Of a stretch of 64,000 nt of DNA, positions 4,902 through 33,673 are shown piece by piece. Under the pieces are notes generated by a model. It was given only the letters and a program-made list of their open reading frames with translations, did not search any database and was not told the DNA's origin. A program made the translations under genes and the position numbers. Source of the stretch: Hyphomonadaceae bacterium (GTDB lineage: Bacteria > Pseudomonadota > Alphaproteobacteria > Caulobacterales > Aquidulcibacteraceae); contig JAIELJ010000014.1 in the NCBI GenBank assembly GCA_019753105.1, forward strand, positions 1 to 64,000, read 5' to 3'. How positions within the stretch are numbered: the first letter of the stretch is position 1; each line of letters opens with the position of its first letter.

Positions 4902-5007
4902 CGCGTCCTCCCAAAACCGATGCACGAAAAATCTTCGCGTCGAGATTGACTCTAGCCAAAAGCGGGAACAACGCTGTTGTCAACCTCAAGTTTTGTGGAG
5001 CGGGCTG

Positions 5008-8000: not shown

Positions 8001-9267
8001 CACGCAAGCGCTGCCCGGCTACGATGCTCGCGGCAACCTCACCAATTTGGGTCAGAGCACATTCGCCTACGACATCTTCAACCGGCTGACCGCAGCGACC
8101 CCAGCGGGGTCGAGCCAGACGACATTCGCCTATGATGCGCTGGGCCGCTTGCGCCGCGCTCAGACTGGATCGACCGTCACGCAATTCCTGTTTGATGGAG
8201 TCCAGACAATCGCCGAATACGACGGCACAACGCCCACCGCAGTGCTGCAACGCCGCTACGTCTTCGGCCCGGGCGTGAACGAACCGCTGGTCTGGTACGA
8301 AGGCACAGGCACAAGCGACCGCCGCTGGCTGGTCAGCGACGAACGCGGCAGCATCATCGCTGTCACCAACGGAACAGGCGCGGCGTCCAGCATCAATGCG
8401 TATGACGAATACGGCGTGCCGGCGTCAGGCAACGCGGGGCTCTTTCAGTACACAGGACAGATGTGGCTCTCCGGTGCGCAGCTTTATCATTACAGAGCGC
8501 GAGCCTACGACCCGCGCCTCGGCCGCTTCATGCAAACCGATCCTATCGGGTTTGAAGGTGGGATGAATCTGTATGCGTACGTCGGGAACGATCCAGTCAA
8601 CTTAGTCGATCCGTTTGGTTTGCTCGATGTCAGGACACGTCGGGAGAGGATAATTGTGGTAACCGCAATTAGGGCGGAACCTTATTTGTGGGGAGAGCTA
8701 CAAAGCTTGACATGGCTGGCGGATGGCGGTGGTGGCGGAGGAATAGCCTCTATGGCCAGCGGCAGCGCCGCTACCTTTCAGACTATTTCGGACGAAGCGC
8801 AGCCTACATGTTCATCCATCATTGCCTCAAATATCGGCATAGGTGCAGTAGGGGGTGCGGCGGGCGGCTTGCTCGCCGGGGCAACCATTGCCGGAGTGCC
8901 GAGTGGAGGCACGCTGGCAGTGCCAGGTGCGGGTACTGGAGCAGTCATCGGAGGCGCGGGCGGCGCAGCTGTCGGGGGAATTATTGGCTTAGCGACATGT
9001 CACGCGAATTCTTTAAACTCTTCTCGACCGACGTGGGTATATGAACTTCGCTACAATAGTACCGGGGAAGTGGCAAAATACGGAATCACCTCACGCCTCA
9101 ATCCTACAGATCGGTATCCGTCGTGGTTCTATAGCGTACGTGGCGTGACGATGTTTCCGCTGATGCGGTACTCAAACCGCCGAGATGCTCGGAATGCAGA
9201 GCGAGCTCTCTGCATACGATATAGAGCAGAACACGGGACGCGGCCTCCCATGAGCCTGATTTGTTGA
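5008..9267 (+). CDS. Secreted RHS/YD-repeat polymorphic toxin with URI-like nuclease tip
   Basis: The start at ATG 5008 is set by GGAG eight bases upstream and by the signal peptide that follows (hydrophobic 10-28, cleavage after SASA about 31); the protein is 1419 residues. Residues about 40-1150 are a shell of YD repeats (FSYDAGGRLE, YTYDLFSRQL and many more). The RHS core-associated block (RARAYDPRLGRFMQTDPIG to DPFG, ending about 1204) is the known self-cleavage boundary. The 215-residue tip then has a glycine-zipper hydrophobic stretch (about 1275-1335) and a C-terminal domain with YELRYNSTGEVAKYGITS plus RRDARNAERALC, which fits the GIY-YIG/URI fold used by Tox-URI nucleases. Tip and following genes look AT-richer than the core, as expected for exchanged tips. 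The immunity candidate starts four bases later. Confidence 0.85.
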   Translation: MQHVILARLRLFCMAAIAALALAVAAGSASAQSIGPPPVRATIDENGVDLTDGSLWTWSPSISIGQPGSGALVYSRVYDSSALAWRDNLTGTINSSGSTYTVSLFGSSEVFTLSGGVYTPDEANGATLTFNSTTNDYTYTTRYGAVAVFDKDLAGTSPTQANEGRVISYTEPDGEAYVFTYVTLNSSTQRLQSVTNNFGYQLKLDYYNNDPATDGLRLIRVTALNNAVDYCNPSADSCSYSQTWPNLQFNATRPTEITDALSQVWRYVYDGSNRITGIRRPTSPSTNNITVAYNSTTGRVSTVSDGAGTWTYSFPSVMTGSRTVTVTDPVSSSYGISFNGTNTISEVTNGGLSITYSYDGENRVTGITDTADVITQFQYDARGNVTQTTRVPAAGGTSIVTSASYPSDCTYIRTCNLPTSTTDERGFQTDYTYDNAHGGVLTVTSPAPTGSAPAITGVRPQTRFEYGQFSAYYKNSSGTIVAGPSQVTLLIETSACATTSSCDGGSDETLTVIGYGSTGVANNRLPVSQTIQSGTGSISSATAFTYDSVGNLLTIDGPLSGTDDTSRLRYDALRQTIGAVGPDPDGGGSGLHRAQRFTYNADGQVTVAESGTVTSQSDAAWANFATLEQVNTGYNAQGRAITSAFVAQSATHALTQFSYDAGGRLECQTVRMNPAAFGSLPSSACTLGTQGSYGPDRVTRFTYNVNDQVLTVTTGYNTGSPITEVTNAYDTSTGQLLGVYDGQNNRTGYQYDAYGRLTHTYYPRPDLPGTSSTTDYEQYSYNAASAITQTRRRDGQTISFTYDNLLRVTALDAPGGSADDVSYTYDLFSRQLTAVNNSQTQSFAYDQLSRVTSAGGPLGTVSYQYDAASRRIRMDWPDNFYVTYDYDLTNAVTAIRENGATSGAGVLATFAYDNLGRRVSLTRGNGVVTTYAFDAASLLATLTQDLSGSGSDLVRTFDYNAGAQIVERESSNSAYNTPTPYNGTTAYTDNGLNQYNNVTQALPGYDARGNLTNLGQSTFAYDIFNRLTAATPAGSSQTTFAYDALGRLRRAQTGSTVTQFLFDGVQTIAEYDGTTPTAVLQRRYVFGPGVNEPLVWYEGTGTSDRRWLVSDERGSIIAVTNGTGAASSINAYDEYGVPASGNAGLFQYTGQMWLSGAQLYHYRARAYDPRLGRFMQTDPIGFEGGMNLYAYVGNDPVNLVDPFGLLDVRTRRERIIVVTAIRAEPYLWGELQSLTWLADGGGGGGIASMASGSAATFQTISDEAQPTCSSIIASNIGIGAVGGAAGGLLAGATIAGVPSGGTLAVPGAGTGAVIGGAGGAAVGGIIGLATCHANSLNSSRPTWVYELRYNSTGEVAKYGITSRLNPTDRYPSWFYSVRGVTMFPLMRYSNRRDARNAERALCIRYRAEHGTRPPMSLIC

Positions 9268-10346: not shown

Positions 10347-10376
10347 GTTTAAGATGTGTGTGGGATGGAGGCGGGT

Positions 10377-10961
10377 ATGACTGGTGTCATTTGTGGCTAC
10401 GGTCGAACGTCTTCCGAAGAGCAACGTGCTGGCCTCGACGCCCAACTCGCGGAACTGCGAGCGGCGGGATGCACGAAGATTTTCTCCGAACAGGTTTCGT
10501 CGGTTGATGCGAAGCGGCCCAAGCTCGCCGAAGCCCTCGCATTCTTGCGTGAGGGTGACACCATGATCGTCACTCGCCCTTGCCGCCTCGCACGCAGCAC
10601 CAAAGACTTGCTCGACATCGTTGACGATCTGACCAAGCGCGGCGTCGCGGTTCGCATCCTGTCGATGGACCTGAACACCGCCAACGCCACCGGACGTTTG
10701 ATCCTGACGATCCTCGCAGGCATCGCAGAGTTTGAGCGTAGCCTCATGCTAGAGCGCCAGAGGCACGGAATCGCCAAGGCAAAGGCCGAAGGCAAATATC
10801 GCGGTCGTGCGCCAACCGCTCGCGCACGCACGGCGGAAGTGAAGGCGCTAAAGGCCGAAGGGCTGGGCGTTGCGGCGATCCATCAGAAGACGGGCGTCAG
10901 CCGTTCGAGCATCTATCGCATTCTTGGCGATGCTGAAGGCCAATCGCGGCAGCGGGCGTAG
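10377..10961 (+). CDS. Serine recombinase (resolvase/invertase family)
   Basis: ATG 10377 is chosen over an upstream frame because GGAGG lies six bases before it; the product has 194 residues. The N-terminal catalytic domain (about 4-140) contains YGRTS with the nucleophile Ser12, GLDAQLAELRAAGC, the RPCRLARS box, and the helix-E region AEFERSLMLERQRHGIAKAK. A C-terminal HTH of Hin type (about 150-185, GLGVAAIHQKTGVSRSSIYR) completes the usual short resolvase layout. It could resolve dimers, invert DNA or be a remnant of a transposon; no terminal inverted repeats of a Tn3 element are seen. It sits within the island next to the broken RHS fragment. Confidence 0.92.
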   Translation: MTGVICGYGRTSSEEQRAGLDAQLAELRAAGCTKIFSEQVSSVDAKRPKLAEALAFLREGDTMIVTRPCRLARSTKDLLDIVDDLTKRGVAVRILSMDLNTANATGRLILTILAGIAEFERSLMLERQRHGIAKAKAEGKYRGRAPTARARTAEVKALKAEGLGVAAIHQKTGVSRSSIYRILGDAEGQSRQRA

Positions 10962-16472: not shown

Positions 16473-16859
16473 ATGTCCGAGCTTCCTCCGGTCGGCGCGT
16501 TCGCCATTGTGCCGAGCAATGATTTGCAAGCGGCGATCCCGTTCTGGGAGCGCTTAGGCTTCAGCCGCACAGGCGGCGACGCGCAATACATCATCATGAC
16601 CGGCTGGGATTGTGAGGTTCATCTCACGCAAGCGGGCGGCGGCCCTTGGCGCGTGCCGTCTGATCACAATCCGTTCGGCGTTTTCATCCGAACGCCGCAC
16701 GTGGATGAAATCGCCGCGCGCGTCGATGATCTGATTATCCGCCCCGGCGGCGTGCTGCGCCACCGCGAGTGGGGCATCTACGAAGTTGGGATTGCTGGGC
16801 CGGATGGTTTGCTGGTGCGGGTTGGTTGGCCGTCGAAGTTGGTCAACGACCGCGCTTAG
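16473..16859 (+). CDS. VOC-family (glyoxalase/bleomycin-resistance fold) protein
   Basis: The start ATG 16473 (GGAG nine bases upstream) gives 128 residues. The fold is the paired beta-alpha-beta-beta-beta module: [20 protein letters not shown] at the start, a Glu in [27 protein letters not shown] and [16 protein letters not shown] at the end. Members bind small ligands or metals as dimers, including glyoxalases, dioxygenases and drug-sequestering proteins; the substrate cannot be told from sequence. The last two conserved segments are intact. It overlaps the convergent UXS gene by four bases. Confidence 0.8.
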
Positions 16860-17866
16860 CCGCGCGCGCCTGCGACGCGCGCTTGCAACTCACGCACCGT
16901 CTCGCCCGCAGGCGCAACCGGCGCATCGCGCAGCAGCTCATCGAAATACGCGATCGTCTTCTTCAGGCCTTCGTTCAACTGAATCGTCGGCGTCCAATCG
17001 AGTAGTTCTTTCGCCTTGCTGATATCCGGCTGACGTTGGCGCGGGTCGTCGTGCGGCAGGGGGCGGGCGACGATCTTGGAGCGTGAGCCGGTGAGATCGA
17101 TCACGGCTTGCGCCAGTTCGATGATGCGAAACTCGTTTGGATTGCCGAGATTGATCGGGCCGGTGACCTCAGGCGGTGAATCCATCAGCTTCAAGAAGCC
17201 GTCGATCAGATCGTCGACATAGCAGAAGCTGCGCGTCTGCGCGCCGTCGCCGAAAATGGTGATGTCCTCGCCCTTCAACGCCTGCACGATGAAGTTCGAG
17301 ACAACGCGCCCATCATTCGGATGCATCCGCGGACCGTACGTATTGAAGATGCGCGCGACCTTGATCTGTAAATTGTGCTGGCGGTTATAGTCGAAGAACA
17401 GCGTCTCGGCGCAGCGTTTGCCTTCGTCATAGCACGAGCGAATCCCGATCGGATTGACGTTGCCCCAATATTCCTCGCGCTGCGGATGCATCGCCGGATC
17501 GCCGTACACTTCCGACGTTGAGGCCTGAAAAATGCGCGCCTTCAGCCGTTTGGCGAGGCCCAACATATTGATCGCGCCATGGACGCTCGTCTTCGTCGTC
17601 TGCACTGGATCGTGCTGATAGTGAATCGGCGAAGCCGGGCAGGCGAGATTGTAGATCTCGTCGACTTCGACATAGAGCGGAAACGTCACGTCGTGGCGCA
17701 TGAACTCGAAGCGCTTGTGACCGATCAAGTGCTCGATGTTACGCCGCCGGCCGGTGAAGAGATTGTCGGCGACGACAACTTCATCGCCGCGCGCCAGCAA
17801 GCGATCGCACAAATGCGAGCCAAGAAAGCCAGAGCCGCCGGTGACGAGAATTCTGCGTGGATCTTG
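16856..17866 (-). CDS. uxs: UDP-glucuronate decarboxylase (UDP-xylose synthase)
   Basis: The start is set at GTG 17866: AAGGA lies seven bases upstream and the frame before it runs into the previous gene. The protein has 336 residues. It is a short-chain dehydrogenase/epimerase-fold enzyme that converts UDP-glucuronate to UDP-xylose with bound NAD. Seen are the NAD loop [11 protein letters not shown] (about 9-19), [14 protein letters not shown], the catalytic Ser region STSEVYGDP, the YDEGK box and [20 protein letters not shown], all typical of UXS. It starts 14 bases after the OGT-like gene, so the two are almost certainly one transcript. It may supply donor sugar for that transferase; the envelope is an alternative destination. 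Confidence 0.9.
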
Positions 17867-17880
17867 CACTGGGCGTTCCT

Positions 17881-19920
17881 TCAAGCGGCGCGGCTGATTG
17901 CGTCGGCGTCCGCCGGCGCTGGCCACAAGCGGCCGTCGGCAATCAGCGGGCGGCGCGCGTCAAGTTTCGCGAGTTCTGCGCGGTAGTGGGCGTGATAATC
18001 GGTCATGAGCCCGATCTCGGCGGCGTCGTGATCAAAGCGCGCGCCGATTTCGAGATAAGCGGAGAGATTAGCAAGGTTCGGCTGCGGCATCTGTCCCGCC
18101 GCATATTCGAAGGCCATCTGCGCGTAGAGCCGCTCCAGATTGCGCGCGAGGCCGTCAATATCGAACAGCGTACATGTATCGCGGCCAGCAATGATGCGCT
18201 CGCGGATGCCAGCGAGGCTCAGACGATCTGTTGTCGCCAGCTCTACGGCGCGAGAGACGAAATGCTCAGGCGTGTCGCAGATCAGCTCCGGCGCGCCGGC
18301 AGAGCGCACCAAAGAAGAGCACACGCGCGATGCGAACGAACGCCCCGGCAGCGTCAGCACCGGCACACCCATCCAGAGCGCGTCTGACGCTGTCGTATGC
18401 GCGCCGTATGGAATTGTATCGAGGAAAAGATCGGCCAGCGGGTAACGCGCAAGGTGATGCGCATTGGCGATCTTCTTCGCAAAGAAGATGCGATCAGCCG
18501 CAACGCCACGTTCAGCAGCGGCGGCGCGAATGCGATTGTTGGTCTCGCTACTGTAGTCGAGCAACCAGAGCACGCTCTCCGGCGTCTGGCGCATAATCTC
18601 CATCCAGCGCTCAAACGAGAAACGCGTGATCTTGTGCGCAGCGTTGAAGCAGCAGAACACGAACGCGTCTTCGGGCAGGCCGGCTTCGGCGCGCGACGGC
18701 GTATTCGGGTGCACGACGCGTTTGCGGTCGTTCGGCTGATAGCAGGGCAGGCGCAGCACGCGCTCGGAATAGTAATGCTCATGATCCGGCGGAATCACTG
18801 ACTCGTCGGCGACGATGTAGTGGTGGAAGGCGCTGCCCATCGTGCCAGGATAGCCAAGCCAGTTCACGATGATCGGCGCAGGCCGGCGCGCGAACACGCC
18901 AAGCCGCGCTTCGCGCGTATGGCCGTTCACATCAACAAGAATATCGATACCGTCTTTAGCGATAGCAGCCGCGGCTTCATCGTCGCTCATTGCGCGGATG
19001 TCGGTCCAATGCTCGACATCGCCTTTGATGCGGCGGTTGATCTCGTCGTCCGCCGGAATCCCGCAATAATAGACAAACGTCTCAACCGCGCTGCGATCAT
19101 GCGCTTCGAAGAGGTTGGCCATGAGATAGCCAACGGCATGGGCGCGCAGATCGGACGACACGTACCCGATCCGCAATCGCCGCCCAGTCTGGATCGTCGC
19201 GTGACGGCGATCGTTCGCCATCGAGATGTCGCCTTCGGTCAAGGCTTGCACATAGCGATCGGCGAGGCCCAGCTGGTAGAGCGGGTCATCCGCATAGGCG
19301 CAGGCCGAAAGCGGGTGAAAATTCATGAGATAGTTGCGGCGCCCGATCTTCGGCGGCACTGCCGCGTTCGGCCATTTGCACTGCGCCAGCCGCGCCGCCG
19401 CAAATTGCTCCAGCACATCGCGCTGTGCGGGGTTGAGATCCAGAGCCTGCGTCAGCGCGGCTTCCGCGCCTTCGTGCTGCTGGTTATCGCTCATGACGCG
19501 GCTGATCTGCTTTAGCAGCGTCAGCTTGTAGTCGATTGCATCACCGCTGACGGCGCTAAGGCGTTCGAGCCCGGCCTTCCATTGTTCGACGGCTTCAGCG
19601 GCGGCGCCACGACGTTCCATCGCACTGCCGAGATTGACGTGCGCGGGCGCGAAATCAGGGTTGCGTGCGAGCGCTGCGCGGAGCGACGCCTCAGCGCCGG
19701 CGGCATCGCCCAGCTGTGTCTGCAGGGTAGAGCAATTGAAGTGCGCGATGAAGACGAGCGGGTTCTCGGCGTTCATCGCGATCCAGACCTGGTAAAGCTG
19801 GCGCGCTTGCTCGGCCTGGCCGGCATTGGCGGCGTTCTGCGCGGCTGCGATCAGCTCGTGCAGGCTGAGGCCGCCAGACGTGATCTTCTGCAGCGCAGCC
19901 AGGAAGTGGTTGTCGGCCAT
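17881..19920 (-). CDS. TPR-containing OGT-like glycosyltransferase (GT41 family)
   Basis: ATG 19920 is preceded by GGGG; two in-frame starts slightly upstream are possible. The protein has 679 residues. TPR repeats (about 25-200, e.g. [19 protein letters not shown]) precede a GT41 catalytic region: [70 protein letters not shown] and [20 protein letters not shown]. These match the OGT signature of nucleotide-sugar transfer to Ser/Thr of proteins in the cytoplasm; the HTT motif is OGT-like rather than SPINDLY-like. It lies 96 bases after the giant Ser/Thr-rich octapeptide protein and just before uxs. The repeat protein is the obvious candidate substrate; donor sugar is unproven. Confidence 0.88.
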
Positions 19921-20016
19921 GAGCATCCCCGCGCAGGGGCACACCCGCGCGGGCGCGAGGCTCTAGTGATTTGTGTTGCCGAAGCCTTAATGCCCCAGCC
20001 CTCTATGCGACAGCCC

Positions 20017-23000
20017 TTAGGCCGCCGCGAGATAGGCCTCGATCTGCTCGCCCTCGAGGCTGGCGACCTGCGTCGAGGTAAAGGCGTAGAGCTGCGTCTG
20101 GTTGAAGGCGCCGATGCTGGTGGTCGAGAGGTGATCCAGCTGCGTCGTGGTCAGAGACGGGATTTGCGTCACTGTCAGCGCCTCGATCGTCGCCGCCTGC
20201 AGTTCCTCGATCACGGTCGTGCTCCAGGCCGCGATCTGTGTTGCGGTCATCGCGCCGATCTGCGTTGCGTCAAACTCGGCGATATCGGTGGAGTCGAGAG
20301 CGCCGATCTGGGTTGCCGTGAGCGTGCGGATCTTCGTCTCGTTGAGTGCGCCGAGTTGCGCGGTCTCGAGCGCTTTGAAGGTCTCAGTGCCAAGTGACGA
20401 GAGCTGGGTAACGGCCGCCACCTGCGTGTCGGAGAGCGACGCGACATTGGTCGCGGTGAGCGATTGCAGCTGCGTTGTGGTCATCGCGCCGATTTGCGTC
20501 GTGGTGAACTGACCGATATCGGCAGCGGTGAGGGCGCCCATCTGGGTTGCTGTGATGGCGCGCACTTGCGTCGTCGACATCGCACCAACCTGATCGGCGT
20601 CGAGCGCAGAGAGATTGGTCTCGCTGAAGGCAGCGATCTGAGACGCTGAGAAGGCGGCGACCTGCGTGAGCGCCATGGCCGCGATTTGCGTCTCAGTGAG
20701 AGACGAGACACTCGTCGCAGAGATCGCCTGCAATTGCGCCACTGTCAGCGCCTGCACTTGCTCCTCGCTTAGCGCGCCCAAATTGTCGGTGCTGAACGAT
20801 TTGATCTGTGTGGCGGAGAATGCGCCGATCTGTGTGGCGGTGAACTCGCCAATGTCCGTCGTTTCAAGCGCTGCGACTTGTGTTGCGGTGAGCGCGCCGA
20901 TTTGCGTGGCCGTCAGTGCGGCGACCTGCGTATCGCCGAGCGCAGACACATTCCCGGTGGAAAGCGCCTTGATCTGCGTCGCCGTGAGGGCGGCCACTTG
21001 TGTGTCGCTGAGTGCGGCGATGTTGGTGTCGCCGAGAGCGGCTATTTGAGTGGTGCTGAGCGCGGCAATCTGGCTTGCGCTGAACTCGGCAAAGTCCGCG
21101 GCCTCAAGCGAGGCCACTTGCGTCGCGGTCAGGCCGCGCAATTGCGTATCGCTGAGCGCCGCAATGTGGGTTGCATCGAGCGCCGAGAGGTTGGTGTTCG
21201 AGAACGCGCGCAGTTGCGAGGTCGAGAGCGCGCCAACTTGCGTAGCCGTGAGGCCGGCGACCTGAGTTTCATCGAGCGCGGCGATCTTTGTCGTGTTGAC
21301 GGACGCAAGCTGCGTCACAGTCAGCGCCGCCAGCTGCGTCTCGGAGAGCGCCGCGAAGTTCGTGGCGGAGAGCGAGCTGAGCTGTGTCGAGGTCAACGCC
21401 GCGACCTGAGTATCCGTGAACTCCGACATGTCGTCGCCGTCGAGCGCGGCGATCTGAGTCGTCGTCATCGCAGCGACTTGTGCGCCAGAGAGAGCGGCGA
21501 CTTGCGTGTCGCTGAGAGCGGCGAAGTTCGTGGCGTTCAGCGCCTGGACTTGGGAGACCGTGAGCGCTGCGACTTGTGTTTCAGTGAGGCTCGTGACGTT
21601 GTCCTGCGACAAGCCTTGCACCTGCGTGGCCGTGAACGCCGCGATCTGGGTTGCGGCGAACTCGCCAATATCCCCGGTGGAGAGTGAGCGGATCTGCGTC
21701 GTGGTCAGCGCAGCCGCTTGTGTCACCGTGAGCGCGCCGACTTGTGTCTCATTCAGGGCGCTCAGATTATCGTCGGTCATCGCACGGACTTGTGCGGTCG
21801 TCATCGCGGCAACCTGCGTGACGGTGAGCGCGCCGGTCTGGGTTTCGGTCAATGCAGCGATGTTGGTGGCGGAGACGGCTTGGATTTGGGTCGCCATCAG
21901 CGCCGCGACCTGGCTGTCAGCCAACGCGGCAAAGTTGGTTGCGTTCAGCGCTTGCACCTGAGTGTTTGTCAGCGCTGCGATCTGTGTTTCGGCGAACTCG
22001 GCGATGTCGGTTTCGTCGATCGCGGCGAGCTGCGTTGCGGTTACGGCGCGGATCTGCGTCGCATTCAGCGCGGCGATGTGCGTCGCTTCCAGTGCTGCGA
22101 ACGCATCGGTTGAGAGGTTCGCGATCTGGGTCACCGTCAAGGCGCCGGCTTGCGTTTCGGTCAGCGCCGCGGCGTTCGTCTCAGTCAGCGCTTGCACTTG
22201 CGTGTTGGTGAGCGCCGCGATTTGGCCAGACGTCAGCGCCGCGATTTGGCTGTCGGCCAAAGCCGTCAGGTTCGTTGTTGAGAGCGCTTGCAACTGCGTG
22301 TTGGTGAACGCCGCGATCTGGGTGTCGGCCAGCTCGGCCATGTTGGTTTCGGTGAGCGCGCCGATTTGCGTCGTGGTCAGCGCAGCCAACTGCGTCGCTG
22401 CCAATTCGGCGATGTCGGTCGCCGACAGCGCGGAGATCTGGGTTGCTGTGAGCGTCCGCACTTGCGTCGCGTTGAGGGCGGCGACTTGGGCGGCGTCGAG
22501 CGCGGATGCGGCGGTCGCCGTCAGGTTCGAAAGCTGGGTGGCGCCGAAGGCCGAGACCTGTGTTGCCGAGAGTTCGCCGATATCGGTGGCGGTGAGGCCA
22601 GCGGCTTGCGTGGCGGTGATGCCGGCCAATTGCGTTGCCGTCAGCGCCGCCGCTTGCGCGCCATCAAGCGCAGAGAGTGTCGACACGGCGAGTGCTTGAA
22701 GCTGGCGTACGCCGAAAGAGGCGATTTGCGTGCCGTTCAGAGACGCCATGTTGGTCGCGGTGAGCGCCTGCACTTGCGTGCGGTTGAGCGAGGCAAGCTG
22801 CGTCGCGGTGAATTCAGCCACGTCTTCCGCTTCCAGCGCGGTGACCTGCGTGCCGGTCAAGCCGCGCAACTGGGTCGCCGTCAGCGCCGCCACTTGCGTG
22901 GCGTCGAGAGCGGAAAGGGAGTCATCGGTGAAGCGCGCGAGCTGTGTCGAGGCAAACGCGGCGATCTGCGTCGCATCCAGCGCGGTGACGCTGCTGGAGG

Positions 23001-26000
23001 AGAGCGATCCGACCTGCGTTGTCGTCAGGGCGGCCAGCTGGGTGGCGCCGAACTCCGCGACATCGGCCGCGCTCAGGGCTTCGAGCTGCGTGGCGGTCAG
23101 CGAGCGCATCGATGCAACGCTCAGCGCTGCGACTTGGGTCGCATCGAAGTTGGCGACGTTCGTTTCGGAAAGCGCACGGACCTGCGACGCCGAAAGCGCG
23201 CCAATCTGGGTCGCCGTCAGGGCCGCGGCCTGCGTTTCCGTCAGTGCGGCGACGTTCGTGGTCGAGAGTGCGACGATCTGCGATGCGGTGAAGGCTGCAA
23301 TCTGTGTGTCAGCCAGATCGCCGACATTCGTCGCCGTGAGCGTGCGGACCTGTTGAGCCGTCAAGGATGCAATTTGCGTGGTGGTGAGTTCACCCACATC
23401 GGTGGCGTTCAGCGCGCCAAGTTGGGTGGTCGTCAGATTGGCGATCTGCGTGGCGGTCAGCGCTGCCATCTGCGTCGCCTCGAGCGCCGAGAGATTTGTG
23501 GCGTTGAAGGCGCGCACCTGCGTCGTCGACAGGTTCTCGATCTGGGTGCTGGTGAGTGCGCCGATCTGAGTCGTGGTCAATGCCGCGATCTGAGAGGTGG
23601 AGGCGGCGGCGAGCTGCGTGGTCGCGAGCGCCGCGACTTGTGTGTCGGCAAGCGTCGCCAGGTTCGTCGCGGAGATCGATTGGATCTGCGTGGCCGTCAG
23701 CGCCGTGATCTGCGTTTCCGTGAACTCCGCGAGATCTGTCGATTGGAGAGACGAGATTTGCGACGCAGTCAACGCGCGAACTTGGTTAGTGCTCAGCGCC
23801 GCCATTTGCGTGTCGGCCAAGGCGCGGACATTTGTGTTGCTGAGTGCGCCAAGCTGCGTCGTGGTAAGCGCGCCGACTTGCGTGGTCGTGAGCGCTTGAA
23901 CGTTGCTAGCGGCCAGGCCTTGCACTTGCGCCGTCGTCAGCGCTGCAATCTGGGTGGCTGCAAAAGCGGCAATCTGCGTATCCGCCAGCAACGCTAGATT
24001 AGTGGTTGTCAGGGCTTGAACTTGCGTTGCGGCGAGTGCGCCGATCTGCGTCTCGTTGAGCGCGCCGGCGTTGGTGGCGTTAAGCTCACTCACTTGCGTT
24101 GCCGTGAGCGCAGCGATTTGGGTGGTGGTGATCTCGCCCATATCGTCGGCGTCGAGCGCGCGGAGCTGGGTTGCCGTCAAGGCGCGCATCTGCGTGGCGC
24201 TGAGGGCGCCGAACTGATCAGCTTCAAGGGCTGACAACGAGGTGACGTTGATCGCGGCAACTTGCGTCGCCGTGAATCCGCCGATCTGAGTCTCAGTCAA
24301 GGCGCCGACATTGGTCGCGTTGAGGCTCGAAACCTGGGCGGTGGTCAGTGCGGTGAGCTGCGTGGCGGTCAGAGCGGCAATCTGCGTGTCGGCCAGCGAC
24401 GTCAGGGCGCTCGTCTGGAGGCTGGCAATCTGAGAAGCAGAGAAGGCCGCGACCTGTGTTTCGGAGAGCGCCGCGAGCGCGGTGCTGGCAAGTGACGCCA
24501 GCTGTGTAGTTGCGAGTTGCCCCAGTTGAGTTGTCGTGAATTCGGCGAGGTCTGCGCTGTCGAGCGCAGCCATTTGAGTGGTGGTGAGCGCGCGTATCTG
24601 CGTCAGATTAAGGACGGCCGCTTGTGTCTCGCTGAGGGCTGCGAACGTGGTTTCGCCGAGAACAGAAATCTGCGAGCGCACCAGTGCGCCGATCTGCGTC
24701 GTCGAGAGTGCGCCGATTTGGGTTTCGTCCAACGCCCCAAGCACAGTTGAGGTCAGCTGCGCCACTTGTGTGGTCGTCAATGCAGCGATCTGCGTGTCCG
24801 CAAGCGCGTCCACCGTGGTGGCGTTCAGCCCGCGGAGCTGAGAGCTCGACAGCGCTGCGACTTGCGTCGTGGTCAGCGCGCCGATTTGATCCGCGTCCAG
24901 CGCGGCGATCTGGCTCGTCGTGAGTGTCGCCACTTGCGTGGCGGTCAACGCCGCAACCTGGGTGTCGGCCAGTGCGCCGATGCTGGTGGCGGTTACGCCC
25001 CGAAGTTGGGTCGTCGTCAGCGCTGCGATTTGGGTGGTGGTGAACTCAGCGATATCGGTGGCGTTGAGCGACGATATCTGCGTCGCCTTGAGCGACGCCA
25101 CCTGCGTCGCCGTCAGGGCGCCGACTTGTGTATCGCTGAGCGCCGCTAGAGCAGTGTTGGTGAGCTGTTGCAGCTGCGTGGCGCCAAGCGCGGCAACCTG
25201 CGCTTCCGAGAACGCTCCGACATTCGTGGCCGTCAGCGCTTTGACTTGCGAGGCGTTGAGTGCTGCGACCTGCGTCTCCGTCAGGGCGCCAAGCTGGGTA
25301 TCGGTCAAGCCGGTGAGCGCCGTGCTGGAGATCGCTTGCACTTGCGTGCCGCTGAATGCAGCGATCTGCGTCTCCACCAGAGACCCCATGGCCGTGGCTG
25401 TGAGCGCACGCATCTGCGTGGTCGTGAACGACGCCAGCTGAGTGTTGGCGAACTCCGCGATGTCGCCGGCGCTGAGGCCCGTGAGCTGAGATGTGGTGAG
25501 CGCCGCAGCTTGGGTAACCGAGAGAGCCGCCACCTGCGTGTCGGCGAGAGCGGCCAAGTTCGTTGCTGTGATGGATTGCAGCTGGGTGTTGGTGAGTGCT
25601 GCAATCTGGCTGTCGGTAAGCGCCGCCATATTGGTGGCGGTGATGGCGCGAACTTGCGCTGTCGAGAAGGAGCCGATCTGGGTGGCGGTGAACTCGGCGA
25701 CGTCGTCGCTCGTGAGCGCGCCGATCTGCGTCACCGAGACGCCGACCAGCTGAGTAGCCGAGAGCGCGGCCGCTTGCGTGGCGTCCAGTGCGGAGAACGC
25801 GCTTGTGGTTAGACGCGAGATTTGCGTCTGCGTGAACGCACGTACTTGCGTGGACGAGAGTTCGCCGATGTCAGTCGCGGTGAGCGCGGCGACCTGGGTG
25901 GTGCTGAGATTAGCGATCTGGGTGGTGGTGAGCGCGGCCGCCTGGGTTTCATCGAGAGCGGAAACGTTGGTTGCGCCGAGGGCTTGAATCTGGGTGGTCG

Positions 26001-26325
26001 CCAGCGCCGCGATCGCGGTGGTGGTCAGACTTTCCATCTGCGTCGCTGTCATGCTGCCGATCTGGCTCGTATTGAGAGCCACGAGCTGGGCCGCGCTGAA
26101 CACCACGTCGCTGGAGAAATTGGGAACCTGCGTGACCGTGAGGGCCCGCATTTGTGTCGCCGAGATGGCCGCGACCTGCGTATTCGAGAGGGCCCCGATA
26201 CCCGTCGCGCTGATCGCAGCGATCTGCGTCGGCGCAAGCGCGGATATGACCGTCGCGTTGAGGCCCTGGATGGCCGTGACGGACAGGGCGCCAATCTGCG
26301 CCGCAGACAAACTCGTAATCGACAT
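20017..26325 (-). CDS. Giant octapeptide-repeat protein, Ser/Thr-rich
   Basis: This 2102-residue protein is made almost wholly of about 260 tandem octapeptides of consensus T-Q-[IVL]-x-A-L-[ST]-x, starting near residue 7. No Cys is seen, Trp is nearly absent, and Pro is rare. A minority class replaces Gln with Asn, Ala or Asp (TNxAAL, TDIAEF), and these marked units recur every three or four octads. Two six-residue units shift the phase, near residue 74 (DVVFSA) and near the C-terminus (TQVAAV). There is no signal peptide, no membrane segment and no RTX motif; the tail is EGEQIEAYLAAA. T-x-T-Q before hydrophobic residues could cap short helices, suggesting a solenoid. AGGA lies before the ATG. 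Its operon partners are an OGT-like transferase and UXS. No homologue is recognised. Confidence 0.85.
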   Translation of the reverse strand: MSITSLSAAQIGALSVTAIQGLNATVISALAPTQIAAISATGIGALSNTQVAAISATQMRALTVTQVPNFSSDVVFSAAQLVALNTSQIGSMTATQMESLTTTAIAALATTQIQALGATNVSALDETQAAALTTTQIANLSTTQVAALTATDIGELSSTQVRAFTQTQISRLTTSAFSALDATQAAALSATQLVGVSVTQIGALTSDDVAEFTATQIGSFSTAQVRAITATNMAALTDSQIAALTNTQLQSITATNLAALADTQVAALSVTQAAALTTSQLTGLSAGDIAEFANTQLASFTTTQMRALTATAMGSLVETQIAAFSGTQVQAISSTALTGLTDTQLGALTETQVAALNASQVKALTATNVGAFSEAQVAALGATQLQQLTNTALAALSDTQVGALTATQVASLKATQISSLNATDIAEFTTTQIAALTTTQLRGVTATSIGALADTQVAALTATQVATLTTSQIAALDADQIGALTTTQVAALSSSQLRGLNATTVDALADTQIAALTTTQVAQLTSTVLGALDETQIGALSTTQIGALVRSQISVLGETTFAALSETQAAVLNLTQIRALTTTQMAALDSADLAEFTTTQLGQLATTQLASLASTALAALSETQVAAFSASQIASLQTSALTSLADTQIAALTATQLTALTTAQVSSLNATNVGALTETQIGGFTATQVAAINVTSLSALEADQFGALSATQMRALTATQLRALDADDMGEITTTQIAALTATQVSELNATNAGALNETQIGALAATQVQALTTTNLALLADTQIAAFAATQIAALTTAQVQGLAASNVQALTTTQVGALTTTQLGALSNTNVRALADTQMAALSTNQVRALTASQISSLQSTDLAEFTETQITALTATQIQSISATNLATLADTQVAALATTQLAAASTSQIAALTTTQIGALTSTQIENLSTTQVRAFNATNLSALEATQMAALTATQIANLTTTQLGALNATDVGELTTTQIASLTAQQVRTLTATNVGDLADTQIAAFTASQIVALSTTNVAALTETQAAALTATQIGALSASQVRALSETNVANFDATQVAALSVASMRSLTATQLEALSAADVAEFGATQLAALTTTQVGSLSSSSVTALDATQIAAFASTQLARFTDDSLSALDATQVAALTATQLRGLTGTQVTALEAEDVAEFTATQLASLNRTQVQALTATNMASLNGTQIASFGVRQLQALAVSTLSALDGAQAAALTATQLAGITATQAAGLTATDIGELSATQVSAFGATQLSNLTATAASALDAAQVAALNATQVRTLTATQISALSATDIAELAATQLAALTTTQIGALTETNMAELADTQIAAFTNTQLQALSTTNLTALADSQIAALTSGQIAALTNTQVQALTETNAAALTETQAGALTVTQIANLSTDAFAALEATHIAALNATQIRAVTATQLAAIDETDIAEFAETQIAALTNTQVQALNATNFAALADSQVAALMATQIQAVSATNIAALTETQTGALTVTQVAAMTTAQVRAMTDDNLSALNETQVGALTVTQAAALTTTQIRSLSTGDIGEFAATQIAAFTATQVQGLSQDNVTSLTETQVAALTVSQVQALNATNFAALSDTQVAALSGAQVAAMTTTQIAALDGDDMSEFTDTQVAALTSTQLSSLSATNFAALSETQLAALTVTQLASVNTTKIAALDETQVAGLTATQVGALSTSQLRAFSNTNLSALDATHIAALSDTQLRGLTATQVASLEAADFAEFSASQIAALSTTQIAALGDTNIAALSDTQVAALTATQIKALSTGNVSALGDTQVAALTATQIGALTATQVAALETTDIGEFTATQIGAFSATQIKSFSTDNLGALSEEQVQALTVAQLQAISATSVSSLTETQIAAMALTQVAAFSASQIAAFSETNLSALDADQVGAMSTTQVRAITATQMGALTAADIGQFTTTQIGAMTTTQLQSLTATNVASLSDTQVAAVTQLSSLGTETFKALETAQLGALNETKIRTLTATQIGALDSTDIAEFDATQIGAMTATQIAAWSTTVIEELQAATIEALTVTQIPSLTTTQLDHLSTTSIGAFNQTQLYAFTSTQVASLEGEQIEAYLAAA
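20060..26305 (-). repeat. Tandem 24-nt repeat tract encoding octapeptides
   Basis: The coding DNA repeats with a 24-base period throughout, with heavy synonymous drift (core reading ACT CAG ATC GCC GCT CTC ACG and variants). Unit identity is kept at protein level rather than DNA level, which suggests long-term selection on the peptide instead of recent expansion. Confidence 0.85.
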
Positions 26326-28803: not shown

Positions 28804-28816
28804 CGTGAGACCCGTC

Positions 28817-29695
28817 ATGAACCAAAAACGTCTGCACCTCGCTATCCAGAAGAGCGGCCGCTTGGCCGAGCGGAGCCTTGAGCTCGTCCGCAAGGCCGGC
28901 TTCCGCGTCAATAAGAGCGCGAGCGACCTCGCTTACAGCGTCGAGAATGCACCGATCGACATCTGGTGCGTTCGCGATGACGACATTCCGACATTCGTCG
29001 CCAATGGCGTCGCCGATCTTGGCATTGTCGGCCGCAATGTTCTGGCGGAGCGCGCTGCGGGTGGCGGTGACGGCGTGCGCGAGATTATGCCGCTTGGGTT
29101 CGGGCGCTGCCGGTTGTGCATCGCTGGGCCGGAGCGTTTTGAGTATCGCGGCCCCGGATCGCTCAACGGCCTTCGCATAGCGACCACCTATCCGAATTTG
29201 CTCACGCAGTTCCTATCCGCCGCCGGCGTCCAAGCCGAGATCGTCACGATGAGCGGCGCCGTTGAAGTCGCGCCGAGGCTTAAACTCGCGGACTTGATCT
29301 GCGATCTCGTCTCCACGGGCGCGACGCTGGAGGCCAATGGCCTCGCCGCCTTTGAGACAGTCATGGAGGGCGAGGCGACGCTGGTGCGGTCGACGCGTGA
29401 ACTCGATCCGGACTTAGAGCGCCTCTTGGAGAGCTTGAGTTCGCGGTTTCGCGGTGTCTGCGCATCGCAGGACGCCAAGTACGTCATGATGAATGCGCCG
29501 CGCTCCGCGCTTCCGCGCATCGCAGAAATCCTGCCAGGCGCGGGCGCACCGACAGTTCTGGAATTGGCGGGGCGCGATGATGCCGTCGCCGTGCACGCTG
29601 TCTGCCAGGAATCGGTGTTCTGGGAGACGCTTGAAGCGCTCAAGGAAGCCGGCGCTTCCGCGATTCTCGTTCTCTCAATCGAAAAGCTGATGTGA
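28817..29695 (+). CDS. hisG: ATP phosphoribosyltransferase, long form
   Basis: HisG joins ATP and PRPP in the first step of histidine synthesis. With 292 residues from ATG 28817 it is the long form: two periplasmic-binding-like catalytic lobes (about 1-215; DIWCVRDDDIPTFVANGVAD, LGIVGRNVL, ATTYPNLLTQFL, DLICDLVSTGATLEANGL) and a C-terminal PII-like regulatory domain (about 220-292) that binds histidine. It therefore needs no HisZ. The ribosome site (GTGAGA) is next to the last attenuator stem. hisD-hisB begins seven bases after the stop. Confidence 0.96.
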   Translation: MNQKRLHLAIQKSGRLAERSLELVRKAGFRVNKSASDLAYSVENAPIDIWCVRDDDIPTFVANGVADLGIVGRNVLAERAAGGGDGVREIMPLGFGRCRLCIAGPERFEYRGPGSLNGLRIATTYPNLLTQFLSAAGVQAEIVTMSGAVEVAPRLKLADLICDLVSTGATLEANGLAAFETVMEGEATLVRSTRELDPDLERLLESLSSRFRGVCASQDAKYVMMNAPRSALPRIAEILPGAGAPTVLELAGRDDAVAVHAVCQESVFWETLEALKEAGASAILVLSIEKLM

Positions 29696-29702
29696 GGGCG
29701 CG

Positions 29703-31601
29703 ATGAAGACGTTTGTTTGGGGCGATCTTTCTAGTGCGGACCGAGACGCTGTGCTGGCGCGCCCAGATCAAAGGTGTGCGCCTGAAGTTTCGGCTCTCGT
29801 GCGGCAGCTATTTGACGAAGTCGCGAGCGAAGGTGAAGCAGCGCTGGCGCGCTGGGCGCTGAAGCTTGATCGCCACGCACCCGTTGCGCTCGATCTAAGC
29901 GCCGCTGTAGTCGATTCTGCCCGTGGCCGTCTCGCGAGCGAAGACCTTGCTGCGATCGAATTCGCCGTTGATCAGGTGCGGTTCTATCACGAAGCAACCA
30001 AGCCGAAGTCGTGCGTCGTTGAAAGCCTCCCCGGCGTACGCACACGGCTAGAGTGGCGAGCCATTGCTTCCTGCGGCCTTTACGTACCGGCGGGAAGCGC
30101 GCCGCTGATCTCGACGCTCATCATGCTGGCCGAGCCCGCGCGTGCTGCAGGGGTTGCCGAGCGGATTGTCGTCACGCCGCCCGGTGAGAATGGCGAGCCA
30201 CATCCAGGCATGATCGCCGCCGCCGCTGCGTGCGGTGTCGAGCGACTGTGGATGATCGGCGGCGCGCAAGCGATCGCTGCGCTGACGCTCGGTGTGTTTA
30301 CACCGAAAGCGCTGAAGATTTTTGGCCCCGGCAACGCCTATGTCGCCGAGGCCAAACGCTATGCAGCGTCTCTCCCGGGCGGGCCCGCGATCGATCTGCC
30401 GGCAGGCCCAAGCGAACTGATGGTGATCGCCGATCGTGGCGCCAATGCGCGAAACATCGCCGCTGATCTTTTGAGCCAAGCGGAGCACGATGCAGACGCC
30501 CAAGTAATCTTTGTCACGACCTCCGACGAACTCAGCGCCGATGTCAGCCTCGAAGTCGAGAAGCAAGTGACCGGTCTTGGCCGGGAAGCGATTGCGCGCG
30601 CGGCGCTGGGGCAAGCGCGGATCATACGCGTCCGTTCGCTGCAAGAGGCGGCAGAGGTCGCCAACCTCTACGCGCCGGAACACCTTTCGCTACAAACTGA
30701 AGACGCCGCCACGCTGGTCAAATCGATTGAGAATGCCGGTGCTGTGTTTGTCGGCCCGATGAGCGCGGAGATATTCGGCGACTACGTCTCTGGGCCCAGC
30801 CACGTTTTGCCGACAGACGCGAGCGCGAAGACGTATGGCGGCGTGAGCGTCGCATCGTTCATGAAGTCGCTTACGGTGCAGGAGGTCGACGAAACTGGCG
30901 TTCGCGCGCTCGCCGGTCCGGCGGCACGTTTGGCGCGGCTCGAAGGACTGGAGGCGCACGCCCGCGCGGCGGATATCCGGATCGCTGCTTCAAGTAACAC
31001 TGAGCGTGCATCCGAGCCGGTGATTCGCAGACGGCGCGGCGCGGTCACGCGTGAAACGAAGGAGACCTCGATCGCCGTCAACATCGATTTGGACAGCCCC
31101 GGGCCGGTGCAGATCGCGAGCGGTGTCGGCTTCTTCGATCACATGCTCGAGCAAGTCGCCCATCACGGCGGCTTTTCGCTGACCCTCTCTTGCGCGGGCG
31201 ATTTGCACATCGACGCGCACCACAGCATCGAAGATTGCGCGATCGCCTTAGGCCGCGCCTTGAGCGAAGCACTCGGCGAGCGCCGCGGCTTGGCGCGCTT
31301 TGGCTTTGTGCTGCCGATGGATGAGGCCGAGGCCAAAGTGTCGGTCGATCTGGGCGGCAGACCCTATCTCGTGTTCGAAGGCGCGTTCACCGCGCCAGCG
31401 ATCGGCTCGTACCCAACGGAGATGACGGAGCACGTATTCCGGTCATTGGCGCAGGCGATGGGCGCCAACATCCATGTGAGCGTGACGGGCGACAATGATC
31501 ACCACAAGACCGAGGCGTGCTTCAAGGCGCTTGGCCGCGCTCTGCGTCAGGCCATTCGTGTCGAGGGCGCGGTCGTGCCCTCAACCAAAGGCGTGATCTG
31601 A
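29703..31601 (+). CDS. hisDB: HisD-HisB fusion: histidinol dehydrogenase and IGP dehydratase
   Basis: A single open frame of 632 residues carries two enzymes. Residues 1 to about 430 are histidinol dehydrogenase (FGPGNAYVAEAKR, LPAGPSELMVIAD, zinc/substrate region LLSQAEHDADAQ, YAPEHLSL, GPSHVLPT), which does the last two oxidations. After a linker (about 430-445), residues about 446-632 are imidazoleglycerol-phosphate dehydratase with both metal-binding HHxxE-type boxes (DAHHSIEDCA, DNDHHKTEACFK) and FFDHMLEQVAHHGG. Linker residues RRRRGAVTRETKET resemble a normal HisB N-terminus without its start codon. No stop or frameshift is seen. hisH starts at the stop (TGATG). HisB here lacks the HisN-type phosphatase domain of E. 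coli HisB. Confidence 0.93.
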   Translation: MKTFVWGDLSSADRDAVLARPDQRCAPEVSALVRQLFDEVASEGEAALARWALKLDRHAPVALDLSAAVVDSARGRLASEDLAAIEFAVDQVRFYHEATKPKSCVVESLPGVRTRLEWRAIASCGLYVPAGSAPLISTLIMLAEPARAAGVAERIVVTPPGENGEPHPGMIAAAAACGVERLWMIGGAQAIAALTLGVFTPKALKIFGPGNAYVAEAKRYAASLPGGPAIDLPAGPSELMVIADRGANARNIAADLLSQAEHDADAQVIFVTTSDELSADVSLEVEKQVTGLGREAIARAALGQARIIRVRSLQEAAEVANLYAPEHLSLQTEDAATLVKSIENAGAVFVGPMSAEIFGDYVSGPSHVLPTDASAKTYGGVSVASFMKSLTVQEVDETGVRALAGPAARLARLEGLEAHARAADIRIAASSNTERASEPVIRRRRGAVTRETKETSIAVNIDLDSPGPVQIASGVGFFDHMLEQVAHHGGFSLTLSCAGDLHIDAHHSIEDCAIALGRALSEALGERRGLARFGFVLPMDEAEAKVSVDLGGRPYLVFEGAFTAPAIGSYPTEMTEHVFRSLAQAMGANIHVSVTGDNDHHKTEACFKALGRALRQAIRVEGAVVPSTKGVI

Positions 31602-32203
31602 TGGGCGTCGCCGTGGTCAAACTTGGTTCGGGCAATACTGCCTCGATCATGTTCGCACTGGAGCGCCTCGGTGCGCGCGCCGTGCTGACAGACGACGCGG
31701 CGCGCGTCGCGGACGCCGAGCGCGTGATCCTGCCTGGCGTGGGGGCCGCGGCAACCGCAGCGCGGAGTCTTGAGACCAGTGGCATCGGCGAGGTGCTGCG
31801 CAACTTTCAGCGCCCGGTGCTTGGCATCTGTCTTGGCCAACAGCTTTTGTATGAGCGCAGCGACGAAGGCGATGGCGCGCGTGGCCTCTCGTTTCTGAAC
31901 GGAACCGTCACAGCACTGCGCGCGACGCCGGCTCTGCCATCGCCGCATATGGGCTGGTCAAGGCTGAACGTATCGCGAGAGAGTGCATTGCTCGATGGCG
32001 TTCGCTCCGGTGACTACGTCTATTTTGTCCACTCGTTCGCTTGTCCGGTGGCTGGCGAGACGATCGCCACCGCAAGCTACGGCGAGACGTTTTCTGCGGC
32101 CGTGGAACGCGGCAACGTTTACGGGTGTCAGTTTCACCCGGAACGCTCAAGCGAAGTCGGCGCGCGTATCCTCAAGAACTTCCTGGCGATCTCATGCTCG
32201 TAA
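31601..32203 (+). CDS. hisH: Imidazole glycerol phosphate synthase, glutaminase subunit
   Basis: This 200-residue class I glutamine amidotransferase feeds ammonia to HisF. The nucleophile Cys lies in GICLGQQLLYE (about residue 75), and the His-Glu pair is in CQFHPERSSE (about 178-187). HMGWSRLN and YFVHSF are conserved HisH segments. The ATG overlaps the preceding stop by one base and the gene overlaps hisA by 10 bases. Confidence 0.95.
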   Translation: MGVAVVKLGSGNTASIMFALERLGARAVLTDDAARVADAERVILPGVGAAATAARSLETSGIGEVLRNFQRPVLGICLGQQLLYERSDEGDGARGLSFLNGTVTALRATPALPSPHMGWSRLNVSRESALLDGVRSGDYVYFVHSFACPVAGETIATASYGETFSAAVERGNVYGCQFHPERSSEVGARILKNFLAISCS

Positions 32204-32916
32204 TTCCTGCAATCGATCTGCGCGACGGCGCTTGTGTCCGGCTTCTTCAGGGACGCTTTGACGCCGTAACTCAATATGGCGATCCGTTCGTTCAGGTGCG
32301 GCGGTTCGCGGAGGCGGGCGCGCAATGGGTCCATATCGTGGATCTCGATGGCGCCCGTGCCCGGAAGCCGGCGCAGGTCGATCTGATCGGGCGTCTGGCC
32401 GCAGAGACGAACCTCAAAGTGCAGAGTGGCGGCGGCGTACGATCGCGAGAAGATGTAGAGGCGTTGCTCGCCGCAGGCGTCGATCGCGTCGTCACTGGCT
32501 CAGTTGCGGTGCGTGCGCCGCAAGAGGTGCGGCAGTGGATTGATGTGTTTGGTGTCGAGCGCATTTGTGTGGCGCTCGATGTGCGGCAAACGCAAGAAGC
32601 GTTCGAAGTCGCAGCGGACGGCTGGGCCGCCAATGGCGGCGCCACGCTGGAGCAGGCGCTCTCCGCTTATCCGCCAAATGCACTCAAGCATGTGCTCGTC
32701 ACCGACATTTCTCGCGATGGCGCGCTGGATGGACCGAATACGGCGCTGAAGCAGTACATTCGCCGCATCAGAGCCGATCTCGCCCTGCAAGCCTCGGGTG
32801 GCGTCGCCAGTTTGGATGATCTGGCTGCGCTCAAGGCGGCCGATGTCAGCGCAACGATCGTAGGCCGCGCGCTCTACGAGCAGCGCTTCACGGTGGAGGC
32901 CGCTCTTGCCGTCTAA
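32194..32916 (+). CDS. hisA: ProFAR isomerase
   Basis: HisA opens the ribose ring of ProFAR by an Amadori rearrangement. ATG 32194 gives 240 residues of a TIM barrel, starting LVIPAIDLRDGACVRLLQG with the catalytic Asp near residue 8 and VTDISRDGALDGPN with the second Asp. Phosphate loops QSGGGVRS and ASGGVAS are present. It overlaps hisH by 10 bases and hisF by 11. Confidence 0.95.
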   Translation: MLVIPAIDLRDGACVRLLQGRFDAVTQYGDPFVQVRRFAEAGAQWVHIVDLDGARARKPAQVDLIGRLAAETNLKVQSGGGVRSREDVEALLAAGVDRVVTGSVAVRAPQEVRQWIDVFGVERICVALDVRQTQEAFEVAADGWAANGGATLEQALSAYPPNALKHVLVTDISRDGALDGPNTALKQYIRRIRADLALQASGGVASLDDLAALKAADVSATIVGRALYEQRFTVEAALAV

Positions 32917-33673
32917 GCGCATCATTGCTTGTCTCGACGTGCGTGATGGCCGCGTCGTGAAGGGCGTGCGCTTTGCAGGGCACGTCGACCTTGGCGACCC
33001 CGGCGAACTCGCTACGCGCTATCGCGACGATGGCGCCGATGAAGTGGTCATCTACGACATAACCGCATCGGCGGAACGGCGTACGATCAACTATCAATGG
33101 CTGGCGGGCGTCGCGCGCGTCTTGGATGTGCCGCTCACCGTTGCTGGCGGCATCCGAACGTTGGAGCAGGCGCTCGCCTGCCTCGAGCACGGCGCGGACA
33201 AAGTCTCGATCAACTCGCCGGCGCTTGAGCGGCCGGAGTTGATTACCGAGATCGCCAATGTCGCGGGCTCGCAATGCGTCGTCGTGGGCGTCGATAGCCG
33301 GCGCGTTGATGGCGTCTGGAGCACGTTTCAATACACCGGCGTCGAAAGCGCGATGCGCAAGACGCCCCGCCCCATGCTGGATTGGATCGTCGAGGCGCAA
33401 GAGCGCGGCGCCGGCGAGATCGTTCTCAACTGCATGGATCAGGATGGCGTGCGCGAAGGCTATGACGTGGCTCAACTAAAGGCCGCGAGGGAGAAGCTGC
33501 GCATACCGCTTGTAGCCTCAGGTGGCGCTGGTGCGCCGTCGCACTTCGTTCAGGTGTTCGCGGAAGCTGACGTATCCGCCGCTTTGGCCGCGGGGATTTT
33601 TCACTCGGGAGCAGTGTCTGTGCGCGAAGTCAAAGCCGCGCTGCGCGCGGCGGGCTTGGAGGTGCGCTTATGA
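32906..33673 (+). CDS. hisF: Imidazole glycerol phosphate synthase, cyclase subunit
   Basis: HisF closes the imidazole ring, releasing AICAR. The start is TTG 32906, supported by GGAGG seven bases upstream and by the conserved N-terminus [20 protein letters not shown]; no ATG is available. The 255-residue TIM barrel has the catalytic Asp residues in CLDVRDG and [13 protein letters not shown]. It overlaps hisA upstream and hisIE downstream by four bases. Confidence 0.95.

Follow-up and report, generated by a model that had tools for sequence, protein, structure and literature searches.

The first 64,000 nucleotides of contig JAIELJ010000014.1 from a Hyphomonadaceae bacterium (assembly GCA_019753105.1, forward strand; referred to here as the window) contain three consecutive minus-strand genes. 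They encode a giant protein made of eight-residue repeats (octads), an OGT-like glycosyltransferase of family GT41 with a tetratricopeptide repeat (TPR) region, and a UDP-glucuronate decarboxylase or UDP-xylose synthase (UXS). The gene order, established from coordinates and family matches, and the 96-base spacing between the first two genes agree with a first-pass annotation of this DNA. The GT41 stop and the UXS start lie 11 bases apart, not 14 as given there.

26325-20017, minus strand: octad-repeat gene (ALTTAQ), ATG to TAA, 2102 residues, 260 octads with the consensus L-T/S-A/T-T-Q-I/V-A-A
19921..20016, minus strand: intergenic gap of 96 bases between the repeat gene and the GT41 gene
19920-17881, minus strand: gene for an OGT-like TPR plus GT41 glycosyltransferase, ATG start, 679 residues
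19944, minus strand: alternative GTG start of the GT41 gene, lengthening the protein by 8 residues
17869-16856, minus strand: UXS gene (UDP-glucuronate decarboxylase / UDP-xylose synthase), GTG start

A register fit places 260 octads on 2080 of the 2102 residues of the repeat protein, matching the number of about 260 proposed for it before. Its identity at a lag of eight residues is 0.369, whereas 200 shuffles averaged 0.122 and never exceeded 0.138. The repeat is an already named Pfam family, ALTTAQ (PF20080, ALTTAQ_rpt; E 2.2e-216, 699.6 bits, gathering cut-off 26.4), and all 52 PF20080 matches of the host genome fall within this one gene. With octad positions numbered from 0, the 260 octads of the register fit carry Leu at position 0 in 75%, Thr or Ser at position 1 in 66%, Thr at position 3 in about 76%, Gln at position 4 in 70% and Ile, Val or Leu at position 5 in 86%. 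The protein contains 382 Thr and 168 Ser residues and lacks Cys. Inspection of its N-terminus by eye revealed no Sec signal peptide, and there are no RTX families among its Pfam matches.

An AlphaFold2 model of residues 381-780, calculated with nine congener sequences (pLDDT 93.9, pTM 0.79), contains 50 helices in 400 residues. Each modelled octad forms one helix of 4-6 residues, in which positions 2-5 are always and positions 0 and 1 never helical. Position 1 is Ser or Thr in 27 of these 50 octads and is the helix N-cap in the model, so that Thr at position 2 or 3 would be the likely acceptor of any sugar; both positions sit in the first helical turn of the predicted fold, where their Thr is probably solvent-exposed. 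The earlier description of the repeat as Ser/Thr-rich thus holds for composition, with the qualification that part of this richness appears to be structural. A Foldseek search of the PDB gave no convincing global match to the model (best row TM 0.13); among the rows at E <= 0.001, mesothelin is matched in part, with a TMt of at most 0.43, and TM is at most 0.34 among the matches listed from BFVD. AlphaFold can model repeats confidently yet falsely, the case described in the accessible part of one report being beta-solenoids (PMC11795689). A solved 120-residue protein, HeliScrew4 (PDB 9zem), repeats in the same register of eight residues (phmmer E 5.6e-16 over 109 residues), which favours the view that the octad repeat truly folds.

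The glycosyltransferase matches PF13844 in two stretches, both halves of the catalytic region (E 1.3e-82, 278.2 bits, cut-off 25). In an alignment with solved OGT and XcOGT chains it retains the HTT motif, the Lys of FNxxxK and the LDT motif (K, HTT, D), which we take to be the catalytic and UDP-binding residues K842, HTT 920-922 and D925 of human OGT numbering. It matches OGT chains at E 3e-83, compared with an E of only about 5e-5 for HMW1C-like enzymes or N-glucosyltransferase, and it falls below the cut-off of the HMW1C-type NCBIfam model NF049992 (27.8 bits vs 1000). The host genome has a second PF13844 site on another contig (C3). To our knowledge, the natural substrates of bacterial GT41 enzymes are mostly unknown. 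UXS matches four solved UDP-glucuronate decarboxylase 1 sequences over nearly its full length (E 1.1e-126 to 7.2e-126), with no other solved sequences at E <= 1e-60.

Within the genus, PF20080 is present in 17 of 30 genomes, our own included, and in all 17 a GT41 gene lies directly downstream of the repeat gene on the same strand. For two of them (G003 and G014), in which the repeat gene is split across two contigs, the piece adjoining GT41 was used. The GT41 orthologue (67-75% identity) occurs in 18 of the 30 genomes, namely the 17 carriers of the repeat gene and G012, whose contig stops about 120 bases from the 5' side of its GT41 gene. Ten long copies of the repeat protein, including that of the window, align over 2101-2102 window residues at 58-63% identity with almost no length change, so the number of octads has been kept almost constant; two congeners have shorter octad proteins of 1720-1806 residues (L071, L076). 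In three congener loci (L066, L069 and L072, from G008, G015 and G023) and in L125, two or more overlapping frames of the ALTTAQ gene are open, which suggests frameshifts, assembly or sequencing errors, broken genes or programmed shifting.

Among 387 genomes of the window's class, inferred to be Alphaproteobacteria, PF20080 occurs in seven (own included) and GT41 in 143. GT41 is found in 6 of the 7 ALTTAQ genomes and in 137 of the 380 others; as it is common without ALTTAQ too, presence alone says little, and linkage is the informative test. In the six other ALTTAQ genomes, GT41 lies beside the repeat gene in four, two of which (G205 and G229) each carry a second ALTTAQ copy without GT41. In two of these four the GT41 is about 4 kb away, with ABC and HlyD genes separating the pair. 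Of 57 plasmid records, 15 were picked for taxon spread, among which two Cereibacter and two Rhizobium stretches are near-copies and the Niveispirillum stretch repeats G205; GT41 is present in 11 of these 15 stretches.

A wider scan of GTDB species genomes used a two-octad DNA pattern that takes no account of GT41 or of octad positions 2, 3, 6 and 7; an ALTTAQ open reading frame was present in 87 of 120 among the matches listed. After leaving out L206, whose contig is shared with another tile, and two further loci, the set comprises 84 loci from 83 genomes and includes one congener of the window. GT41 is encoded in 79 of these 83 genomes. At 44 of the 84 loci the GT41 gene is within 5 kb of the ALTTAQ locus itself, and at least one ALTTAQ-GT41 pair within 5 kb exists in 61 of the 83 genomes, a count that includes added GT41 regions taken mostly from genomes still lacking a pair. 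The chance expectation is about 0.8 for one repeat gene per 4.9-Mb genome, and somewhat higher with several copies. Linked pairs occur in Alpha- and Betaproteobacteria, on Pseudomonas plasmids, and in metagenome-assembled genomes of Geobacteraceae (L340) and Riflebacteria (L342). In Caulobacter, pairs are present in C. segnis FS (L362) and Caulobacter sp. Root343 (L344), and the control genome of C. vibrioides has matches to both families. Homologues of the repeat protein therefore mostly do have a GT41 neighbour, in the genus and beyond it, which gives good support to the dedicated transferase proposed in the first-pass annotation.

ALTTAQ octad patterns were also seen in contigs filed as viral, namely L170/L173 (IMGVR_UViG_2910031632_000002), where the pattern is spaced as in the bacterial locus L114 (G229), and L162, which has three pattern matches. 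In 2 of 14 annotated plasmid stretches, from Pseudorhizobium (L131) and Rhodovastum (L122), the pair adjoins flagellar or flagellin genes.

In a GT41 tree built by a quick method with SH-aLRT support only, 66 of 71 linked enzymes fall into one branch (SH-aLRT 99), which contains none of 12 unlinked enzymes. For Niveispirillum (L109) and a relative (L116), the nearest GT41, as placed in the tree, is their second, more distant one; their window-like GT41 adjoins UXS. The linked loci form two classes. Thr-3-high loci, with Thr at position 3 in at least 0.4 of octads (about 0.75 in the window), are in several cases also Thr-rich at position 2; Thr-3-low loci have Thr or Ser mainly at position 2. 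On the tree the Thr class changes 3 times, compared with 17.9 when shuffled, a pattern that plain co-inheritance of neighbours would give as well.

UXS is associated with one of these classes. Of 20 Thr-3-high loci, 7 have UXS in their stretch, compared with none of 51 Thr-3-low loci. The set leaves out L351, the duplicate L120, all congeners except the window, loci with fewer than 20 octads and pairs more than 5 kb apart. Three extra cases are also Thr-3-high: Pseudoroseomonas (0.66), G431 (0.80) and G518 (0.90), the last with UXS and the scored repeat piece on separate contigs. Overall, UXS lies near the pair in 4 of the 83 genomes and at five additional loci (G205, G285, G229, G431 and a Pseudoroseomonas plasmid). 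It recurs beside GT41 in Asticcacaulis, Phenylobacterium, Niveispirillum, Pseudoroseomonas and others, and the repeat protein is Thr-3-high in every scored case.

Many relatives encode a type I secretion system (T1SS) close to the pair. In 22 of the 83 genomes an ABC gene of this type lies no more than 8 kb from the ALTTAQ or the GT41 gene, and 6 of the 15 plasmid stretches hold one. By annotation, HlyD and ABC exporter genes accompany the pair in Pseudomonas, Cereibacter and Pseudoroseomonas, and phmmer finds them in Niveispirillum; a check of ABC_membrane/ABC_tran domains covered three loci, and one of HlyD_3 covered two. Seven Betaproteobacteria (L369-L373, L375, L376) have an apparent GT41-ABC-HlyD operon with no ALTTAQ gene within the stretch examined, and nine stretches of 4-20 kb around other GT41 genes (L306, L326, L343, L348, L378, L379, L380, L383, L384) lack a T1SS ABC gene. 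As a mark separating the Thr classes T1SS was rejected, its frequency being alike in both (4 of 20 Thr-3-high and 10 of 51 Thr-3-low linked loci). A phmmer search of the 64 kb window with T1SS references and set score limits found no such genes, so that neither ABC nor HlyD was recovered at the window locus. The suggestion that the repeat protein is a surface polymer gains from the pumps encoded beside related pairs, but the window's own genes have none beside them.

We consider it likely that these genes constitute a cytoplasmic system dedicated to the O-glycosylation of one giant exoprotein with an alpha-screw fold, of which we infer the glycosylation, the sugar and the export. The repeat gene would give rise to a protein whose 260 single-helix octads, each helix 4-6 residues long, are predicted to stack into a long alpha-screw. 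The neighbouring GT41 would grip this protein in the cytoplasm via its TPR arm and attach sugars to Thr at octad position 3, just ahead of Gln, at about 200 candidate sites; in the other class of these systems, the repeated Thr or Ser at position 2 may be the acceptor instead. In many relatives, the type I pump encoded beside the pair would export the product as a surface or matrix glycoprotein. For the window and a related subset, the linked UXS suggests UDP-xylose as donor or precursor. More tentatively, one could envisage widespread, undescribed proteobacterial alpha-screw mucins: octad solenoids exported by T1SS, to which a co-evolving GT41 would attach hundreds of O-linked sugars at regular spacing, with an O-xylose linker in the Thr-3 class that includes the window.

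Parts of this arrangement resemble described systems. HMW1C and EtpC are GT41-family enzymes encoded beside one large two-partner-secreted adhesin, which they decorate at many sites; the window likewise has a GT41-family gene adjoining the gene for one large protein. HMW1C modification is Asn-linked and its adhesin uses a TpsB porin, whereas here Thr is the candidate acceptor and the linked exporter in relatives is ABC plus HlyD. Large T1SS adhesins of the LapA and SiiE type are giant and repetitive, lack a Sec signal and are exported by ABC/HlyD/TolC. The octad protein shares their size, repetitiveness and lack of a visible Sec signal, but they are built of beta domains, often with RTX, while it has alpha octads, no RTX match and a glycosyltransferase alongside. 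HeliScrew4 shares the repeat register; by its name it is probably a designed protein, and nothing about it concerns glycosylation, in contrast to the proposed window system. In Caulobacter crescentus, FlmG is a cytoplasmic TPR-glycosyltransferase whose TPR half binds flagellin and whose sugar is pseudaminic acid, as described in the available portion of PMC7591256. A TPR-plus-glycosyltransferase enzyme acting in the cytoplasm before substrate export would be common to both systems. In contrast to flagellin, which is exported by the flagellum, the substrate here would be an alpha-screw repeat protein, with T1SS in relatives and UXS in a subset.

A GT41 enzyme dedicated to one exported protein is thus already known (FlmG, HMW1C); what sets the present case apart is its substrate, its exporter and the link to UXS. 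Like the first-pass annotation, which knew of no described system with this composition, we found no published description in the mostly open-access literature searched. No publication naming ALTTAQ, PF20080 or HeliScrew was found, most subscription papers and every bioRxiv preprint lying outside the search, and titles and abstract openings of the papers listed yielded no described system joining GT41 or OGT with type I secretion, adhesins or UDP-xylose. The accessible portions of two secretome papers (PMC12502724, PMC2275737) name no octad protein.

Several observations weigh against the proposed system. No pair within 5 kb was seen in 22 of the 83 genomes, and 4 of the 83 have no GT41 at E <= 1e-20. 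The DNA examined on both sides of ALTTAQ loci of Shinella, Thioclava, UR115, Roseateles XES5 and R. rhizoryzae holds no GT41. In 10 of the 83 genomes the DNA examined holds neither a pair nor a T1SS pump, 3 of them having no GT41 at the same threshold; some of the remaining loci with neither (e.g. L189 and L248) sit at contig ends. Five of the 71 linked GT41 enzymes (L318, L324, L340, L350, L359) lie outside the main branch. Position 3 is Ser or Thr in all ten congeners in just 17 of 50 octads, with a mean conservation of 0.76 compared with 0.94 at the Gln position. Thr richness as a general sign of GT41 linkage is modest, with 0.71 Thr per octad at positions 2 and 3 in linked and 0.57 in unlinked loci (84 loci; p 0.008, ignoring phylogeny). 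Among unlinked loci that were scored with their flanks examined, 5 of 7 have at most 0.30 Thr at both positions, compared with 3 of 71 linked loci; the p value of 1e-4 for this contrast was calculated with L108, an eighth locus that could not be scored, placed on the opposite side. The Thr class and UXS rest on few independent lineages (three pairs), so a formal test of UXS against Thr class is not possible. UXS adjoins the cassette in 1 of 17 congeners, no T1SS lies beside it in any of the 17 congener stretches (0/17), and the host genome lacks a full-length match to the linked ABC type, the best being partial at 30-32% identity.

An alternative reading is that the octad protein is an unmodified structural solenoid whose Thr residues serve only helix capping, and that the GT41 targets another protein, for example flagellin, as FlmG does in Caulobacter. 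The term capping box describes a helix N-terminal pattern of the kind seen here, with a never-helical Ser or Thr at position 1 of 27 of the 50 modelled octads and Gln at position 4. ALTTAQ loci without GT41 fit this reading, and FlmG, in the part of PMC7591256 available, shows that TPR-glycosyltransferases may have other targets. We nevertheless regard it as unlikely: N-capping alone would not require Thr at position 3, which about 76% of the window octads have, the linkage is far over chance across orders and phyla, and most linked GT41 enzymes form a branch of their own.

The system may also be real but retain its product within the cell in the genus of the window, as a glycosylated internal scaffold, with export limited to T1SS-bearing relatives; we think this the less probable course. 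The absence of T1SS beside the cassette in the genus and the partial host ABC matches, which begin only at query residue 164 or 213, make export the weakest step of the proposed system there. Against a scaffold, a pump lies beside the pair in two Thr-3-high relatives (L353, L355) whose GT41 enzymes are 48-51% identical to that of the window, and T1SS genes may lie unlinked from their substrate genes. The balance is even for UXS, which may have arrived beside the window cassette by chance, with the GT41 using UDP-GlcNAc or another donor; the strongest alternative role for it is to supply other surface polysaccharides. Its rarity beside the cassette in the genus fits a chance arrival, as does the UXS of 76-81% identity that 8 of 8 other cassette-bearing congeners checked carry apart from the cassette, on a different contig or, in G015, at a distance of 0.7 Mb. 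The donors known for GT41 enzymes are UDP-GlcNAc, GDP-fucose and UDP-glucose. The recurrence of UXS beside GT41 in other genera, with a Thr-3-high repeat protein whenever scored, argues the other way. With UXS adjacent in 1 of 17 congeners, we rejected a core role for it in the cassettes of the genus and retained it as a recurring accessory of the Thr-3-high class.

Elsewhere in the window, a plus-strand open reading frame of 632 residues (29703-31601) matches histidinol dehydrogenase (PF00815) and, after it, imidazoleglycerol-phosphate dehydratase (PF00475). This HisD-HisB fusion is located in what appears by eye to be a his gene cluster (28805-35375). A 1478-residue RHS-repeat protein is encoded at 4831-9267 (plus strand), followed by small genes and a resolvase-domain gene (10356-10961).

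If the proposed O-glycosylation system is correct, the ALTTAQ repeat and one branch of bacterial GT41 enzymes would gain a function. The octad protein would offer a periodic acceptor with one candidate site per eight residues, useful for studies of GT41 specificity, and would represent a bacterial counterpart to densely O-glycosylated surface proteins. Related pairs occur in the culturable genera Caulobacter, Asticcacaulis, Rhizobium and Duganella, so that these ideas may be tested soon.

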